Origin: a virus
DNA length: 39,527 nucleotides
Reading direction: 5' to 3' (one strand)
IMG/VR virus record: IMGVR_UViG_3300043409_001144
Location: 1-39,527 of that record
Of the stretch, positions 3,171 to 32,536 are shown piece after piece; position 1 is the first letter of the stretch; every line of letters starts with the position of its first letter. A model generated the notes under the pieces. That model was given only the letters and a program-made list of their open reading frames with translations, searched no databases and was not told the DNA's origin. Made by a program: the position numbers and the translations under genes.

Positions 3171-3862
3171 GCATCCTTCATATTGATATTGAATCCATCC
3201 CTAGCCAAAAGAAAGGGGTTGTCGAGGCTATCCGCGAAAGTATTAAACCGCCTGCAACTATGTCAGTGCAAGCCACGATTGATAAATGGTACGCGGAAAA
3301 AGCCGATGATGCCGCCAATGAACAGCACCGTAAACAGTCCTTTGATGGCGCATTGGGCGAGATCATCTCGATAGCGTGGGCACTTGATGATGGCGAGGTT
3401 AATGTTAATTATCGTTATGATGATAATGAGGCTGGCTTGTTACGCGCGTTCTTTGTCGATATTAACGAGTTGACGGACAAGTACGGACAAAAGGCCCACA
3501 TCTCTACTTGGTCAGGGCATTACATTACAGGCTTCGACTTGCGGTTCATCTGGCAACGCTGCGTTATGTTAGGCGTGAGGCCATCCGTTCATATTCCGTA
3601 TGACGCTAAACCTTGGGATAGCAAAGTCTATGACACTAAGATTGAGTGGACTGGCTTAGGTCAAAGCTCCGGTATTGGTAGCCTAGACGCACTTAGCAAG
3701 GCTTTTGGCTTCGAGGGGAAAGGTGACATTGACGGCTCGAAAGTTTATGACTACTGGCTAGATGGACGTATTGAAGAAATAGCCGAATACAACAAGCAAG
3801 ATGTTGTTAAGTGCCGCGCTTTGTATAACAAAATGAATTTTATAACTGAGAGAATAGTATGA
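3167..3862 (+). CDS. DnaQ-like 3'-5' exonuclease (PolB-like type)
   Basis: 231 residues. The DEDDy exonuclease motifs are present in order: ExoI as D7-I-E9 (HIDIES), ExoII around D124 (YITGFDLRFIWQR), ExoIII as Y208-NKQ-D212 (YNKQDVVKCRALY). There is no polymerase domain, so it is a stand-alone nuclease of the kind often paired with phage recombinases. It would make or trim single-stranded ends for the ERF protein. Its start overlaps the ERF stop (ATGA), and it ends overlapping an inserted HNH gene. Confidence 0.8.
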   Translation: MSILHIDIESIPSQKKGVVEAIRESIKPPATMSVQATIDKWYAEKADDAANEQHRKQSFDGALGEIISIAWALDDGEVNVNYRYDDNEAGLLRAFFVDINELTDKYGQKAHISTWSGHYITGFDLRFIWQRCVMLGVRPSVHIPYDAKPWDSKVYDTKIEWTGLGQSSGIGSLDALSKAFGFEGKGDIDGSKVYDYWLDGRIEEIAEYNKQDVVKCRALYNKMNFITERIV

Positions 3863-4374
3863 GTAATGAACTTACTCTTGAAAGGCTTAAATATCTTGTA
3901 AGTTATGATCCTGATTCAGGGGTATTTACAGGCCAAAAAGGAATAAATGCCAGAGGTAGGCCGATTGGAGGAATTGAGTGTGGGAGTTTAGCTAAAAGAA
4001 GAAGTGATAAGTATTATCGGGTAATGAGTATAGATAACGTGCGTTATTTATCACATAGATTAGCTTGGTTATATTCATTTGGTGAGTTTCCAAAAAATGA
4101 AATAGATCATATTGATGGGGATAGCTTAAATAATAAAATCAATAATTTAAGGGATGTAACTAGAATCGAAAACTCTCAAAATATTAGAAAAGCTAGTTCT
4201 AATAATAAAACGGGGTATCTAGGAGTATTCCTTCATAAAGAAACAGGTAAATATAGATCAACCATTATGACCAACAGAAAGAGAGTGTCACTTGGTTTAT
4301 TTACAAATCCTGAAGAAGCCTCTATTGCATATATAAATGCAAAAAGAGAGCTTCATTCATCTTGCACTATATAA
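3859..4374 (+). CDS. HNH homing endonuclease with AP2 domain
   Basis: 171 residues. The HNH_3 core is SHRLAWLYSFGEFPKNEIDHIDGDSLNNKINNLRDV in outline (about 70-108), with the IDHIDGD metal-site motif. A C-terminal AP2-type DNA-binding domain follows (TGYLGVFLHKETGKYRS to SLGLFTNPEEASIAYINAKRELH). Such enzymes spread as free-standing homing elements. The gene is more AT-rich than its neighbours and sits between the exonuclease and ssb, as expected for an insertion. It is coupled to the exonuclease by ATGA, and its end abuts the ssb ribosome site. Confidence 0.85.
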   Translation: MSNELTLERLKYLVSYDPDSGVFTGQKGINARGRPIGGIECGSLAKRRSDKYYRVMSIDNVRYLSHRLAWLYSFGEFPKNEIDHIDGDSLNNKINNLRDVTRIENSQNIRKASSNNKTGYLGVFLHKETGKYRSTIMTNRKRVSLGLFTNPEEASIAYINAKRELHSSCTI

Positions 4375-5134: not shown

Positions 5135-5364
5135 ATAACTTAAGCAAATTGAATGATGTCTTATTCGATCAACTGATAAGGCTTACTGATGACACGGTAG
5201 GCGATGACTATTTAAGCACTGAAATTGAACGCAGCAAAGCGGTTAGCTCTATTGCTCGTGACATTATTTCAAACTCTAAACTTGCCCTTGATATTGTCAC
5301 TGTGCAAAAAAACATGGGTAGCGTTAAAGACTTACCCAAGATGCTTGAAAATGAACGGGCATAA
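5131..5364 (+). CDS. Conserved hypothetical phage protein, 77 aa
   Basis: An all-helical small protein with the pattern LNDVLFDQLIRL, then EIERSKAVSSIARDIISNSKLALDI, which I recall from many phages and prophages without assigned function. It starts on an ATGA overlap with the HTH gene, and the next gene begins inside its last 14 bases. Confidence 0.6.
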   Translation: MNNLSKLNDVLFDQLIRLTDDTVGDDYLSTEIERSKAVSSIARDIISNSKLALDIVTVQKNMGSVKDLPKMLENERA

Positions 5365-5929
5365 GTGGCAACCCTATCAAATAGCCTGGTTAAAAGATAA
5401 CCGTTATGAGCTTAATAATGTCGAGCTTGTCGCCCAATTTAACCGGACGTTTAGCCTCAATCTTATCAGTGACCAGATTATTCAAGCCTGTAAACGTCGT
5501 CGATTTCAGCATAAATACATAGGCTATCAAAAAGGCCATGTGCCTTGGAACGCTGGACTGAAAGGCGTTAATGGTAGCAGCTCAACGACCTTCAAAAAGG
5601 GTAATCCCAACCACAATACTCGCCCGGTAGGATCTGAGAGAATAACCAAAGATGGGTATTGGGAAGTAAAGGTAGCCGAACCGAGGCAGTGGGACGCTAA
5701 ACACCGAATTGTTTGGGAATCAGTACACGGCCCCATACCAAAAGGAAGTCTGGTGCTATTTCTCAGTGATGACAAGCTAAACGTCAACATAGAGAACCTG
5801 CAAATGGTGACACGGGCCGAATTAGCTGTATTGAATCGACATGAAAAGTATAGCAAACAAGCCCCAGAAGTCAGGCGGGCATTAATTAACGTGGTCAGGC
5901 TGGAACAAGCCGCAAAGAGGGCAGCATGA
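5351..5929 (+). CDS. HNH endonuclease family protein
   Basis: 192 residues from ATG 5351, chosen because the sequence before it (from 5225) only reads through the preceding gene in another frame. The N-terminal 60 residues look like a DNA-binding helix set (WLKDNRYELNNVELVAQFNRTF). The middle has the HNH_3-like pattern PVGSERITKDGYWEVKVAEP, then KHRIVWESVHGPIPKGSLVLFLS, NVNIENLQMVTRAEL. The usual HxxG-D core is partly replaced (VLFLSDDKLN), as in a widespread phage subfamily. It may be a Nin-region-style nuclease or a homing enzyme; it overlaps both neighbours, which argues for a resident gene. Confidence 0.75.
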   Translation: MNGHKWQPYQIAWLKDNRYELNNVELVAQFNRTFSLNLISDQIIQACKRRRFQHKYIGYQKGHVPWNAGLKGVNGSSSTTFKKGNPNHNTRPVGSERITKDGYWEVKVAEPRQWDAKHRIVWESVHGPIPKGSLVLFLSDDKLNVNIENLQMVTRAELAVLNRHEKYSKQAPEVRRALINVVRLEQAAKRAA

Positions 5930-7790: not shown

Positions 7791-8123
7791 ATGAAAATTG
7801 AACCTAGAGTAATCAGAGCAGGACAAGCACCAGCCTATTTGGGCATGTCAGCCCCTCATTTTAATACGCATGTACGTCCTTTTCTTGTTGAAGTGAAAGA
7901 CGCAGCAAAAATGATTAGTTTTGACAGGCTTGACTTAGATGCTTGGTGGGAACAACATAAACAGGCTAACGGAAAGCCAGCTCAGGAGAAAGTATTATGG
8001 CAAAAAGAACACCAGGACTTAGAAAGAAAGGCAACATCTGGCACATCGAGAAAGTCATCACAGGTCAACTCATTCGAGTTAGCACTGGTGAGGCTGAACT
8101 CGAAGCAGCAGAACGAATATTAG
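7791..8123 (+). CDS. Excisionase-like protein overlapping the integrase gene
   Basis: 110 residues. The N-terminal 65 residues have a winged-helix or AlpA-like look (VIRAGQAPAYLGMSAPHFNTHVRPFLVEV, then ISFDRLDLDAWWEQHK), the family commonly found just before phage integrases. The C-terminal 43 residues (SGTSRKSSQVNSFELAL) are encoded in the same DNA as the integrase N-terminus, 127 bases in another frame. I recall the same SGTS-type tail in relatives, so the overlap appears genuine rather than a run-on. Likely role: directing excision with the integrase. Confidence 0.7.
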   Translation: MKIEPRVIRAGQAPAYLGMSAPHFNTHVRPFLVEVKDAAKMISFDRLDLDAWWEQHKQANGKPAQEKVLWQKEHQDLERKATSGTSRKSSQVNSFELALVRLNSKQQNEY

Positions 8124-9061
8124 CTCTGTTGATTGATCGGCAACGAAAGATTCATATCTATGGCGAGAAGGTTGAGCGGTCTTTTAACGAAGCTGCTGCT
8201 CGTTATGTTGATGAGAATGAGCATAAGAAATCGTTACAGACTGACATTTATTCGTTAAAAGCAATTATGCCTTATATCGGTAATTTAAATTTACGTAGCA
8301 TTCACTCAGGTTCATTTGATGAATTTATTGCCGATAGAAAAGCCGCTGGACGGTCTGCCGGAACGATAACCCGTGACTTATCTGTTGTGCGTAGTGTCTT
8401 AAGCACAGCAAATCGGTTATGGCGTGATGATATGGGCAATCCTTGGTTAGAAACAAGGCCGCTGTTGCCCGTAGTTCAAGGTAAGAAGCGGAAACCAAGA
8501 CCTATATCTTTTGAGGAACAAGAAGGTTTATTGAAAGCCTTACCAGACTACTTGGCAGAAATGGTTTTGTTTGCTCTGAATACTGGCTTAAGAGATCAAG
8601 AACTTTGCGGCATGAAATGGACAGATGAATGTAAGGTTAGTGGCCTTGATACATCTGTCTTTGTCATCGAAGAAGAAAGAGCAAAAAATACACACGAAAG
8701 AATTGTACCACTCAACTCGGTAGCAATGTCTATTGTCAATAAAAGACGTGGCAACAAATCTGAATTTGTATTTGATTATAAGGGTCGTAAGTTGGCCCAG
8801 ATGACTAATGGCTCTTGGAAACGTGTTAGAGCATCATTAGGGCTTGAAGGCGTGCGTATTCATGATCTACGCCATACGTTCGGTATGCGTTTAAGAGCGG
8901 CTGGTGTGACTTATGAAGATAGACAAGATTTATTGGGTCATCATGCCGGACGCATTACAACACATTACTCAAAAGTTGAAATTGCTCGACTAATTGAGAG
9001 CGTAGAAATGCTGTGTGAAACTCGAAAACCCGAACTTACATTAGTTAGACGGGCGATATAA
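7997..9061 (+). CDS. int: Tyrosine integrase
   Basis: 354 residues. Catalytic residues are in order: R199 (NTGLRDQEL), K230 (AKNTHER), H289-xx-R292 (HDLRHTFGMRL), H315 (LLGHHAG), Y324 (TTHYSK). The N-terminus KRTPGLRKKGNIWHIEK is the typical arm-binding start of this phage integrase subfamily, followed by a SAM-like core-binding domain (about 62-160). AGGAG precedes the ATG. It catalyses site-specific integration and excision of the phage genome. Its 5' end overlaps the excisionase-like gene, and the putative att repeats follow at once. Confidence 0.92.
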   Translation: MAKRTPGLRKKGNIWHIEKVITGQLIRVSTGEAELEAAERILALLIDRQRKIHIYGEKVERSFNEAAARYVDENEHKKSLQTDIYSLKAIMPYIGNLNLRSIHSGSFDEFIADRKAAGRSAGTITRDLSVVRSVLSTANRLWRDDMGNPWLETRPLLPVVQGKKRKPRPISFEEQEGLLKALPDYLAEMVLFALNTGLRDQELCGMKWTDECKVSGLDTSVFVIEEERAKNTHERIVPLNSVAMSIVNKRRGNKSEFVFDYKGRKLAQMTNGSWKRVRASLGLEGVRIHDLRHTFGMRLRAAGVTYEDRQDLLGHHAGRITTHYSKVEIARLIESVEMLCETRKPELTLVRRAI

Positions 9062-20137: not shown

Positions 20138-20311
20138 TTAGCTCCAAGTGGTCGATGGTGGTAATTCGTCTGTCCATGACGATTCTGTGTTCGGTTCGTC
20201 TACCCAAGTATTTATTGCTGTTGCCTCTAGTTGCCAAGTTGCTTCATCTACAGATTGTGCTGTCCACTCATCTGACTGATTAACCTCTATCTCCCAAACC
20301 GTTGTAGCCAT
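20138..20311 (-). CDS. 57-aa tryptophan-decapeptide protein
   Basis: ATG at 20311 overlaps the previous stop (TAATG), and TAA is at 20138-20140, one base before the adaptor ATG. Tryptophan occurs at residues 6, 16, 26, 36, 46 and 56, exactly every ten residues, each preceded by a short Thr/Ser/Glu-rich run (TTVW, DEW, EATW, INTW, ESSW, STTW). Six regular units suggest a small beta-solenoid or beta-stack, perhaps a virion decoration or linker. Similar short W/T repeat genes occur in phage tail regions, but I know of no function. Confidence 0.65.
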   Translation of the reverse strand: MATTVWEIEVNQSDEWTAQSVDEATWQLEATAINTWVDEPNTESSWTDELPPSTTWS

Positions 20312-20583
20312 TAGATAACTGGATCAACAGTCAACACAACACTTGGATCGGCTGCTAACTCCTCTTTGCTAAACCCAAATCTTTCGATTGTGCTTAAATC
20401 TTCAACGTCTAGCCAGATAGGTTCTAATGCTTCACCTGCATACTCAGGTTGGTTATAGTCATCTGGGTACACTTGGCTGTCTTGTTTGCGTGTCATAGAG
20501 CCTTTTAATAACGCTATGAACTCAGCATGACGATCAGTACCTACTACAGCGTCTAAATCTTCTCGTGTGTTAATAATATTCAT
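20311..20583 (-). CDS. Small tail-region protein downstream of the DGR
   Basis: 90 residues from ATG 20583, which overlaps the last 14 bases of the reverse transcriptase gene; a longer frame from 20640 lies wholly in the RT gene and is rejected. The sequence MNIINTREDLDAVVGTDRHAEFIALLKGS looks like a short phage assembly protein: a helix, then a proline- and acid-rich tail (YPDDYNQPEYAG; LDVEDLSTIERFGFSKEEL). No family recognised. Confidence 0.55.
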   Translation of the reverse strand: MNIINTREDLDAVVGTDRHAEFIALLKGSMTRKQDSQVYPDDYNQPEYAGEALEPIWLDVEDLSTIERFGFSKEELAADPSVVLTVDPVI

Positions 20584-21568
20584 ATTTGTTATCCAGCCAG
20601 TTAAATAAATTGTGAGTATCAGCCCAACTTGCATGACCACGCCATGAAGCTAAGAATTTGGTGAGGTTTAAAAACTCATGGTGTTCTATAAAATGCTTAA
20701 TCTTATGCTTTGCTCGTAATACCGAGTCCTTTCTGATTAATTTGTGCGTATTCCAAATGCGATAACCTAAAAAATTAATACCCCGTTTAACACTAGAACA
20801 TTGCCATCTACTAATAGATAACTTTAAGTTTTCTTTTGAAAATTCCTCAATCCTGTAAAAATCATTCCGCAATCTTTCTGGATCATCACCAAGAATCACT
20901 ACGTCATCCATGTATCTTGCCCATCTTCTGTGCTTTAGCTCATGGTGAATAAAGTTATCTACTTTTGAGCCATAGATATTGGCAAATAATTGACTAGTAA
21001 GACTACCAATGGGGATGCCAGTACCTTTACTAAAAAGCAGTTGGTCTATAATTAAGCATGTTTTTTCACATTTAATTTTTCTCTTTATCATCGCTTTCAA
21101 AATATCGTGATCGACACTAGGAAAGAATTTTCTATAATCTGTTTTTAAATAGTACAAAGGTTTTGGTGATCTTCTTAGTTCGGATTGTATATATTTAACG
21201 CCTGCGTGCGTCCCCATGCCAGTTCGACAGGCAAAGGTATTTGGTAGAAACATTGCCTCAAAAATCTCACCTATCACCGCCACTAAAGCATGTTGAGCCA
21301 ATCTATCTTTAAACTCTAATGCTGAAATTAATCGCTGTTTTGGTTCATATACATAAAACTGCTTATACTGACCAATAGTATAAGTACCCTCTAAAAGCTC
21401 TTTTGCCAACGCCTCAATATTCAACGCCTTAAATTCCTTAAACTCAAGGTAGCCATAAGTCATTCTTTTAGCCAATGCGGTTCTATCAAAAGCCAGCAAC
21501 ATATTTTCTTTACTGGTAATTTTTTCAATTAAATTATTATGTGCTTTCATGCTGGTAGCCCGATTCAT
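20570..21568 (-). CDS. Diversity-generating retroelement reverse transcriptase
   Basis: 332 residues. Palm motifs are clear: motif A with D144 (YLKTDYRKFFPSVDH), motif B region GIPIGSLTSQLFANIYG (184-200) with IGxxxSQ, the form that marks DGR reverse transcriptases instead of QGxxxSP, and motif C Y219-MDD (RWARYMDDVVILGDD). Size is normal for the family, with no added maturase or nuclease domain. It copies the template-repeat RNA into error-prone cDNA with adenine-specific mutation, together with Avd. A downstream ATG at 21550 is an alternative start. It directly follows TR, as in phage BPP-1. Confidence 0.95.
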   Translation of the reverse strand: MNRATSMKAHNNLIEKITSKENMLLAFDRTALAKRMTYGYLEFKEFKALNIEALAKELLEGTYTIGQYKQFYVYEPKQRLISALEFKDRLAQHALVAVIGEIFEAMFLPNTFACRTGMGTHAGVKYIQSELRRSPKPLYYLKTDYRKFFPSVDHDILKAMIKRKIKCEKTCLIIDQLLFSKGTGIPIGSLTSQLFANIYGSKVDNFIHHELKHRRWARYMDDVVILGDDPERLRNDFYRIEEFSKENLKLSISRWQCSSVKRGINFLGYRIWNTHKLIRKDSVLRAKHKIKHFIEHHEFLNLTKFLASWRGHASWADTHNLFNWLDNKYEYY

Positions 21569-21697
21569 TAAAAACTACTAAGGGCATCCCAGACCTTGAA
21601 ATGTATTTGCCGAAGCAGGACAAAATGGCTGACCATATAATAAAAGGCCGGCCTACAATGCCGTAGCGATTGCAAAGCGAAAGAACTAATATCGTCA

Positions 21698-21811
21698 CGA
21701 CACCACGCCCACCAATGTTGTTATTCGAATTCGTAGGAGAGTTGTTCCAATTCGAACAACGCGAACCTGTATTCGCACCATTGTTCCAGTTGCCACTAAA
21801 GATGACAGCGT
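21698..21811 (-). repeat. DGR template repeat (TR)
   Basis: 114 bp, starting one base after the avd stop. It aligns without gaps with 22237-22350 (VR). On the coding strand TR has 29 adenines; 20 are different bases in VR, while of 85 other positions only one differs. Read in the VR frame, TR is rich in AAC/AAT codons (NWNNGANTG, NWNNSPTNSNNN), the codons that give the widest range when A is mutated. It is non-coding and, with flanking sequence to 21569, provides the template RNA. The remaining space to the RT start holds a GGCCGGCC-type palindrome (21645-21654) and no gene. Confidence 0.95.
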
Positions 21812-21812
21812 G

Positions 21813-22187
21813 TTACCCATTTTGCCCCTTACGCTTAGTAATCCATGACCCTAGCATAGACCCCACCTCCGCAAGCATGATTAAGACAACTTGGTGCTGG
21901 TGAGGTGTTATGCCGCGTGTACTCGGTATTACTAAGAAACGTAACCAAAACCGCAGCTGCGCTAATCCTGCATCTGCTTCATATATTTTACTGATTTGAT
22001 TACTCTTGCCGGCTATATAAAATAACTCAGCTTGATTAAACAAAGTCTGTAAAAACATATCCCTTACTACCCCATGCTTTCTCGGTAACGATTGCGCAAT
22101 GGGGTATAAATAATGAATCACCGCTTCGTACTTCTCGATGATCGCCATCTGACTATAATTAACAACTGCTTGTTTTATAGGTTGCAT
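21813..22187 (-). CDS. avd: DGR accessory variability determinant (Avd)
   Basis: 124 residues, all helical, in the place and size of BPP-1 Avd (about 128). Helices are evident at MAIIEKYEAVIHYLYPIAQSL, RDMFLQTLFNQAELFYIAGK, ADAGLAQLRFWLRFLV and HQHQVVLIMLAEVGSMLGSWI, the four-helix-bundle pattern related to 23S rRNA intervening proteins. The family forms a basic pentamer that binds the reverse transcriptase and template RNA and is needed for mutagenic retrohoming. It starts about 27 bases after the VR gene stop and ends one base before TR. Confidence 0.9.
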   Translation of the reverse strand: MQPIKQAVVNYSQMAIIEKYEAVIHYLYPIAQSLPRKHGVVRDMFLQTLFNQAELFYIAGKSNQISKIYEADAGLAQLRFWLRFLVIPSTRGITPHQHQVVLIMLAEVGSMLGSWITKRKGQNG

Positions 22188-22197
22188 TTTAAAGGCC

Positions 22198-22213
22198 AGT
22201 GGCTTTCGCCACT
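22198..22213 (-). other. DGR hairpin with GAAA tetraloop after VR
   Basis: On the coding strand AGTGGC, GAAA, GCCACT: a 6-bp perfect stem with a GNRA-type tetraloop directly behind the stop codon of the variable protein. A hairpin or cruciform with a similar tetraloop just past VR is a known feature of the BPP-1 DGR and raises the efficiency of retrohoming into the target. Confidence 0.8.
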
Positions 22214-23209
22214 TTAATCAAGTAACAAGTGGTCAACGACACCACGCCCACCAACGGAGTTAGACGAAGCCGGAGGAGAGGTGACCCAACCCGAACAACG
22301 CGAACCTGCAGTCGCACCAGTGCCCCAGCTGCCACTAACGACGACAGCGTTAGGCAGTTGATAAGTTTGACCACGACCCGTTGTATTAGCCGCCCATCCT
22401 GCTGCCGCTGCGCCACCACCAAAATCTCTGCCCCATACCCACATAACCCCTGTAGATTGCATCACACCCCATTTGGAGGTGTAATCCGCATTAAGAATGG
22501 TTGATACTTGATCTGCACCGATAGCAGAGGCTTCTGTTGTACCGAAAGCTAAGGCTGCATATTCTTGATAGCTGGCCGATCGTTTACCATTAGCCGCTAA
22601 GACTTCATTAGCTTCCCACCAAGTTAGCGTGGTATAAGCTGTTGTGCCATTGCCACCAAACTTAACAGGTACTTTTGGAGGACTAGCCCCATCAGCAATA
22701 GTGACATTGTATTTAGATGTGCCGTTGGTATCAGGGTCGGTATTTAATAGGTAAATATCTGCCCAGAAATTACCAGCAACTAAGGTCATACCGCGCGGGT
22801 CTTGACAAGCAGGCTTAAATTTTAAATCCCAGAATGAATAGGCATTGATATAAGGCGTAGTATCACCACCTGATCGAGCAGCTGCATTACCACCGGGAGC
22901 ATAATGGAAGCCACCAATCTTACGAGCATTAGCCGTAGGTGGTGTAGTGTGGTTATTAGTACAGGTTAGAGTTCCTGCTGTTTCTGCCCATATCGCATAA
23001 TCAGTACCTGTTACAGCGCTTGGCATTGATACAACAGTACCTGAAGCAAATGTTAGCATTATCCCGTTCACTTCGAGATATAGCTGAGTCTGTGTCGATA
23101 CTGCAAAAGCATCGGTTGTAACAAAAGAGACAATGGTCGAGCTACCTTTAGCAAACATGCCTCGTAGGTTTGATATTGTGTTCCTTGATAAGTTTAAGAA
23201 TTGACGCAT
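22214..23209 (-). CDS. DGR variable protein: lectin-fold tail/receptor-binding protein
   Basis: 331 residues from ATG 23209 (TGATG overlap with the gene before; GGA upstream). A beta-rich N-terminal part (about 1-100) is followed by a C-terminal C-type-lectin/formylglycine-type fold: GKRSASYQEYAALAFGTTEA, STGVMWVWGRDFGGG, TTGRGQTYQLPNAVV, then the variable part and GGRGVVDHLLLD. This matches the DGR target family ending in G-x-RGVxDHL. The last 44 codons contain VR. As a late tail gene it probably forms the receptor-binding tip, diversified to follow changing host surfaces. Confidence 0.9.
   Translation of the reverse strand: MRQFLNLSRNTISNLRGMFAKGSSTIVSFVTTDAFAVSTQTQLYLEVNGIMLTFASGTVVSMPSAVTGTDYAIWAETAGTLTCTNNHTTPPTANARKIGGFHYAPGGNAAARSGGDTTPYINAYSFWDLKFKPACQDPRGMTLVAGNFWADIYLLNTDPDTNGTSKYNVTIADGASPPKVPVKFGGNGTTAYTTLTWWEANEVLAANGKRSASYQEYAALAFGTTEASAIGADQVSTILNADYTSKWGVMQSTGVMWVWGRDFGGGAAAAGWAANTTGRGQTYQLPNAVVVSGSWGTGATAGSRCSGWVTSPPASSNSVGGRGVVDHLLLD
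22237..22350 (-). repeat. DGR variable repeat (VR)
   Basis: The 3' end of the lectin-fold gene. Of 29 positions that are adenine in TR, 20 carry G, C or T here. The encoded variable stretch reads SGSWGTGATAGSRCSGWVT against SGNWNNGANTGSRCSNWNN in TR, with the non-adenine framework residues kept. The coding-strand 3' end holds GGTGGGCGTGGTGTCG, identical in TR, probably the initiation-of-mutagenic-homing boundary; past this the two sequences diverge. Confidence 0.95.
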
Positions 23210-31698: not shown

Positions 31699-31877
31699 TT
31701 GATTACCTTTGCAAATGCTCTGTATCGAGCAGGAATTGGCGACAAACCTTCTTCTACGACTATCTTCCAAAACATGTCTTTAAATGCCTCCTCTTCTTCC
31801 CCTGTTGGATTTCGCTTGAATGTCTTTCGGCACTCATTGAAAAGAAAGTTGTTGTTTAGATCATCCATGTCATCCAT
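31695..31877 (-). CDS. Hypothetical phage protein, 60 aa
   Basis: Starts on an 8-base overlap with the sigma-like gene and stops on an ATGA overlap with DUF3310. Acidic first part (DDMDDLNNN), then EEEEAFKDMFWKIVVEE, an amphipathic helix, and a basic tail. No family recognised. Confidence 0.55.
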   Translation of the reverse strand: MDDMDDLNNNFLFNECRKTFKRNPTGEEEEAFKDMFWKIVVEEGLSPIPARYRAFAKVIK

Positions 31878-32460
31878 TTAATAACATCCCATAAATATCT
31901 TTCATTCCGCTATCTGGATGACGTAGTTTTCTCAACGCCTTTTCTCTAATCTGCCTAACTCTTTCCCGCGAAATATCAAATTTTGCACCGATCGCATCTA
32001 AAGTCATTTTTTCACCATCAATTCCGAAGCTGTGATTTATCACTACTTGTTCACGTTTAGTTAGTTTTCCAAGCGCGCCATCCAAAGCATCAATAAATTC
32101 ACTATTACCTATCTCTTTCAATGGGTCGCTTGATCTTTCCAGTCGAGCAAGTTCTTGATAAGAAAACTCAACATCTCTTTTATTCGACTCTAAAGCTACT
32201 AACTGATTGTCAGACCAAACCTCATAAGGCATTACACAAAAGTAATCACAAATTAATTGTGCGTTTTGCTTAAGTTCTCCAGTCTTTTGGAGCAATGGCG
32301 AGACAGTCATATTCAAGTAATCATTTAGAGACGAATAAGTTATACCAATTAATCCTGCTGTTTCTATAGGGCCAACTCCTCCCTCCTCGATTAAGCGCAA
32401 TAAGTTATTATTTCTAACTCGTATTGTTACTCGATAATCTTTAGCGTCATCCATCATCAT
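31870..32460 (-). CDS. Sigma-70 region-4-like regulator
   Basis: About 196 residues from the ATG run at 32454-32460; GGGGAA upstream fits the second or third ATG. The last 65 residues copy region 4 of RpoD: LTKREQVVINHSFGIDGEKMTLDAIGAKFDISRERVRQIREKALRKLRHP. This is the part that reads the -35 box and binds the beta flap. The N-terminal 120 residues have no region 2 but hold a phage-regulator-like helix set (NNNLLRLIEEGGVGPIETAGLIGITYSSLNDYL). It probably works as a late-gene activator or appropriates host polymerase, and it precedes the late promoter. Start uncertain by six bases. Confidence 0.8.
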   Translation of the reverse strand: MMMDDAKDYRVTIRVRNNNLLRLIEEGGVGPIETAGLIGITYSSLNDYLNMTVSPLLQKTGELKQNAQLICDYFCVMPYEVWSDNQLVALESNKRDVEFSYQELARLERSSDPLKEIGNSEFIDALDGALGKLTKREQVVINHSFGIDGEKMTLDAIGAKFDISRERVRQIREKALRKLRHPDSGMKDIYGMLLNG

Positions 32461-32536
32461 TTCCCCAAGCCTTATAGATTGCATACATCATAAAAATCAT
32501 CGTTAAATAGAAGGGTAAAATAATCCACTCAAACAT
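32447..32536 (-). CDS. 29-aa membrane peptide
   Basis: ATG 32536 lies in the last codons of rusA (8-base overlap) and TGA falls just past the ATG run of the sigma-like gene. Sequence: MFEWIILPFYLTMIFMMYAI, then YKAWGNDDG, one membrane helix. Double overlap suggests it is translated; no function known. Confidence 0.45.
   Translation of the reverse strand: MFEWIILPFYLTMIFMMYAIYKAWGNDDG

Follow-up and report, generated by a model that had tools for sequence, protein, structure and literature searches.

The minus strand of this viral record, whose full 39,527 nucleotides are referred to here as the window, carries at positions 20570-23209 a target gene (mtd), an avd gene, a template (TR) and a reverse transcriptase (RT) gene, in the same order as in Bordetella phage BPP-1 (Table 1). 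Diversity-generating retroelements (DGRs) were first found in BPP-1. They copy a template with errors at its A residues and so rewrite the tip of a host-binding protein. An earlier note, made from the letters of the window alone, had placed a complete element in BPP-1 order between these coordinates. The interval does enclose mtd, avd, TR and RT on the minus strand, and no known part of a BPP-1-type DGR is missing. The locus is therefore a complete DGR of this type. Its sequence is new, since none of the 50,697 phage records searched in GenBank provides a near DNA match, but its kind is well known.

Table 1. Features of the DGR locus, with the integrase gene of the window
Feature	Position	Strand	Basis or remark
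mtd-like receptor-binding (target) gene, 331 aa	22214..23209	-	VR encodes C-terminal end
VR, 115 bp	22236..22350	-	ungapped alignment to TR
hairpin/cruciform AGTGGC-GAAA-GCCACT	22198..22213	-	22 nt 3' of VR, directly 3' of mtd stop
avd, accessory variability determinant, 124 aa	21813..22187	-	PF22296 bAvd, NF033474
TR, 115 bp, 29 adenines	21697..21811	-	TR/VR alignment
DGR RNA spacer domain, between TR and RT	21551..21678	-	Rfam RF03022 Phage_DGR
DGR reverse transcriptase, 332 aa, IGSLTSQ and YMDD	20570..21568	-	RVT_1, BPP-1 brt, bRT structure 8UB7
bbp4-like gene, overlaps RT end	20311..20583	-	66% to BPP-1 bbp4 region
tyrosine integrase	7997..9061	+	PF00589 1.6e-22

Within the window, TR and VR align without gaps at an offset of 539. 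The gapless 114 bp reported earlier is confirmed, and one further matching base extends it to 115 bp. Twenty of the 29 TR adenines are replaced in VR, compared to one of the 86 other positions (hypergeometric p = 1.6e-14); the earlier counts of 20/29 and 1/85 are exact for the shorter alignment. Ten of the replaced adenines have become G, seven C and three T. The sole difference at a non-adenine position is a T to G change near the 5' end. The adenine-specific mutagenesis that was read from these numbers is upheld by the same adenine-only pattern in 26 further loci. No second copy of TR or VR exists elsewhere in the 39,527-nt record. TR adenines fall in 16 in-frame codons, 11 of which are AAC or AAT, and the computed outcomes at these codons never include a stop and amount to about 9e15 protein variants. 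An exact 19-base tail pattern was found among viral contigs in that of a relative, L008 (IMGVR_UViG_3300049008_000005; there as L011), and once in a 122-kb contig, L012, roughly the number expected by chance for 19 bases.

The RT has both motifs described earlier, IGxxxSQ (here IGSLTSQ) and YMDD, and it matches Pfam RVT_1 (2.6e-20). Its nearest phage protein is BPP-1 brt (59% over 97%), and the solved bRT complex 8UB7 matches it with an E-value of 3.8e-127. These motifs, together with best matches to bRT in both sequence and structure searches, place the enzyme in the DGR clade. All models of group II intron, retron and DRT enzymes score far below their cut-offs on this RT (104.7 bits against 300 for group_II_RT_mat, 51.1 against 235 for retron St85, 45.3 against 200 and lower). 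A group II intron or retron affiliation, which the earlier note would have taken as a refutation, is thus not seen. A search of bacterial genomes did not find a close DGR relative, only a single distant RT at 33%.

The accessory parts are equally recognizable. Avd matches PF22296 bAvd (5e-28, above the cut-off) and NCBIfam NF033474 DivGenRetAVD (104.8 bits, cut-off 80), and avd is 97-98% identical to that of relatives. The RNA between TR and RT is a full-length match to Rfam RF03022 (97.5 bits, cut-off 50, E 5.1e-16). The window has a hairpin past VR and none past TR, with a GAAA loop that fits the 5'-GRNA consensus (PMC3240598). Guo et al. (2011) found that efficient homing in BPP-1 needs such a GRNA-loop hairpin (PMC3240598). 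The 6-bp stem in the window is one pair short of the published range of 7-10 bp (PMC3240598). Stems of at least 6 bp follow VR in 23 of 29 related loci (22 with a 4-nt GRNA loop) and TR in one; shuffling predicts 1.95. The stem sequences vary among loci while pairing is kept.

The mtd product matches PF21916 mtd_2nd (1e-14), the tail family phrog_11262 (4e-109) and the solved Mtd structures 1YU0-1YU4 and 2IOU (E down to 1.7e-89). A structure model was built from 32 relatives, with a pLDDT of 75.8 that is low in the VR segment (below 50 at 287-306). A search with this model returned five Mtd structures as top matches (E 2.4e-32, TM up to 0.88). The lectin fold proposed earlier for the target is accordingly the Mtd C-type lectin fold by Pfam, solved-structure matches and model search alike. 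The protein is 46% identical to BPP-1 Mtd, with the same fold, and its gene lies among head and tail genes. The tail fibre gene 17 of two GenBank records labelled Escherichia phage T7, LR745707 and LR745708, also matches Mtd (48-50%); these are presumably laboratory constructs.

Ahead of the Mtd core there are 15 residues in the window and 77-206 in several near relatives. Mtd of the window (23150-23209) and of relative L007 starts with a short lead, MRQFLNLSRN, to which the core is joined. At the matching place, L008 (7076-8400) contains two small genes along with some 190 extra N-terminal Mtd residues. Judged from these sequences, the short lead looks like a deletion fusion, and the mode of virion anchoring is hence uncertain. 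The bbp4-like gene that overlaps the RT end matched no family in Pfam or PHROGs; as a guess, its product is possibly a chaperone or assembly factor for Mtd.

Relatives provide evidence of VR turnover. Mtd relatives in IMG/VR number 53. Pooled over the 27 distinct loci that have both TR and VR, 390 of 725 TR adenines are changed compared to 9 of 2434 other positions. VRs were compared between loci whose TRs are identical or nearly so. Between the window and L008, VR differs at 21 of 27 TR-adenine sites and 1 of 76 others (Fisher 1.5e-15). The corresponding values are 14/26 and 1/79 for L026 and L028, 15/23 and 0/82 for L047 and L049, and 14/27 and 0/78 for L015 and L017. L017 and L062 share 99.55% identity over 4.7 kb, and the only differences between their VRs are at two TR adenines. 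A spread of VR variation over non-adenine positions had been named in advance as a refuting outcome; it did not occur. Since relatives with the same TR carry VRs that differ almost solely at TR adenines, the family appears active, and these comparisons are strong evidence that it mutates VR from TR in nature. In L003 (4385-4496), the TR slot lacks 20 of the 29 adenines of the TR of L004 (IMGVR_UViG_3300047277_000087), with 3 of 83 other positions changed. This could be a TR that was itself rewritten, or an assembly chimera that brought in a VR allele.

We are highly confident that the locus is a BPP-1-type DGR by which the phage rewrites the tip of its Mtd-like receptor-binding protein. The 6-bp hairpin stem, the missing G/C run at the VR end, the short lead of the Mtd core and the low model confidence in the VR segment count against this reading. 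It is established for BPP-1 that RT and Avd copy TR RNA with random insertion opposite adenines, and that VR is replaced while TR is kept. BPP-1 Mtd is a demonstrated determinant of tropism. In the window phage, RT with Avd would reverse-transcribe an RNA that covers TR together with the Phage_DGR spacer, inserting random bases opposite template adenines, and the mutated cDNA would then replace VR and leave TR unchanged. The hairpin after VR would mark the end of the target. By analogy, we infer this biochemistry, its current activity in the window phage, and receptor switching through the resulting variation. The window genome itself is a record of past mutagenesis, not present.

Three other readings bear on this conclusion. 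It is unlikely that the DGR, although real, no longer works in the window phage, with VR a record of the past and the short Mtd and stem products of decay. Two close relatives, L007 and L009, are without most of avd-TR-RT and have kept mtd, and the Mtd N-terminus is short in both the window and L007. However, in the window neither avd nor RT is truncated, their motifs are intact, the spacer RNA retains its high score of 97.5 bits and TR its 29 adenines, and avd remains nearly identical to that of relatives. Moreover, L008, which has the same hairpin and a TR differing at 2 of 105 positions, carries a different VR. There is little reason to believe that the Mtd-like protein is diversified for a purpose other than receptor choice, such as evading binding partners in the host or environment, when it shares its fold and 46% of its residues with a known tropism determinant and is encoded among head and tail genes. 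DGR targets do lie outside structural genes in some phages (PMC8008677). The idea that TR and VR are an ordinary duplication that drifted under selection, next to an RT of the group II intron, retron or DRT family, draws on the weak general RT matches described above but has practically no chance of being correct, as those scores are far below their cut-offs, Avd and DGR RNA are present, and it is refuted by substitutions that are confined, across 27 loci, to the adenines of a single copy.

In a number of relatives of the window, the cassette is missing or incomplete. Twelve lack avd, TR and RT. In ten of these there is a direct junction, with the gene after mtd, mostly bbp4-like, beginning within about 50 bases (L014, L019, L027, L029, L033, L039, L041, L042, L050 and L059). 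The bbp4-like gene adjoins mtd in relatives with and without a DGR. The other two, L045 (5890-6429, minus strand) and L046 (5797-6336, minus strand), have an HNH_3 (NUMOD4-like) endonuclease gene in the slot that avd-TR-RT occupies in L044. Cassette-bearing L044 and HNH-bearing L045 are 97% identical in mtd, and from the bbp4-like gene onward 836 bases are 100% identical. Three further relatives have an intact mtd and a mostly deleted avd-TR-RT, each with a different breakpoint (L007:7268-7737, L009:9983-10168, L048:5607-5750). The breakpoint in L009 lies just beyond the VR hairpin.

On an Mtd tree, made by a quick method that renders the count approximate, cassette presence among 46 scorable relatives switches at least nine times on branches with good support, without clustering. 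Such counts alone cannot separate gain from loss, but remnants point to loss. The three remnants and the HNH replacement in L045 and L046 support cassette loss in at least four lines as read from these sequences. Metagenome assembly is a caveat for all of these comparisons, although the three partial deletions differ in their junctions, and long repeats were not seen there.

VRs of several such relatives retain an adenine footprint. Compared to the nearest TR, changes occur at 12 of 25 adenines and 0 of 92 other positions in L048, at 15 of 24 and 3 of 95 in L045, and at 12 of 29 and 3 of 83 in L009. In these phages, a tip made by a DGR was thus retained past the loss of the DGR. Not every such mtd copy need work, since the L045 gene has an in-frame stop. 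A tentative reading, which we hold to be possible but somewhat short of an even chance, is that avd-TR-RT acts as a plug-in, inserted between mtd and the bbp4-like gene, which phages acquire, use to diversify the receptor-binding protein and then often lose, so that a fixed but already diversified mtd stays behind ('diversify, then fix'). A literature search found nothing specific on DGR loss, and such work may still exist. Together with about 50 relatives, the window offers a natural series in which the BPP-1 cassette, on different backbones, is intact, partly deleted, replaced or absent. With this series one can ask, from sequence, how often phages drop targeted hypermutation after finding a good receptor-binding tip.

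The podovirus label given earlier to the window phage is fair, judged from its portal. Cronobacter phage vB_CsaP_Ss1 and Pseudomonas phage PaP3, which we take to be podoviruses, are among its best matches, and the nearest portals are those of Vibrio phage VA-RY-3 and Cronobacter phage Ss1 (45-47%). The integrase gene indicates a temperate phage. The early region includes two HNH_3 endonuclease genes (3859-4374 and 5225-5929), one with AP2. A protein with a sigma-70 region 4 domain is encoded at 31870-32484; perhaps, as a guess, it regulates late genes including the DGR operon.

Outside mtd, avd, RT and the bbp4-like gene, the window and BPP-1 share only weak integrase and transglycosylase matches. 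Membership of the whole phage in Rauchvirus is rejected, as it does not share related head, portal and packaging genes with BPP-1. The window backbone also occurs in L008 and L007. In L004, L009, L015 and L022, the same block (Mtd 70-82%; avd 91-97% where present) is found on a backbone of BPP-1 type, with the portal at 57% and the major head at 49-50% to their BPP-1 counterparts. The presence of one mtd-avd-TR-RT-bbp4 block on unrelated backbones indicates that it has moved between phages. Transfer of DGRs between organisms is known in general (PMC8144416).

Compared to the BPP-1 DGR, the window element has the same gene order, Mtd fold, Avd, RT, RF03022 RNA and adenine-only TR/VR differences, as well as a GAAA-loop hairpin and a bbp4-like gene after RT. 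The differences are in the surroundings and in details. BPP-1 has the tail fibre gene bbp9 upstream of mtd, where the window has small genes and the major head gene; an Mtd core lead of about 55 residues; a hairpin stem of 8 bp; and a 14-bp G/C run at the VR end, which the window lacks. L008 has the same cassette, with portal and major head 98-99% identical to those of the window. However, its Mtd is 522 aa long owing to the long N-terminal part, its contig ends within RT, and its VR is changed at most of the shared TR adenines. L004 resembles the window in block DNA (82% over 2.8 kb), avd (97%), Mtd (82%) and RT (78%), but its backbone (portal 57%, major head 49%) is of BPP-1 type. More broadly, phage-encoded DGRs with an adenine bias are the common pattern of the metagenomic survey of Roux et al. 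(2021), which covers more than 30,000 DGRs (PMC8144416), and the window element conforms to it.
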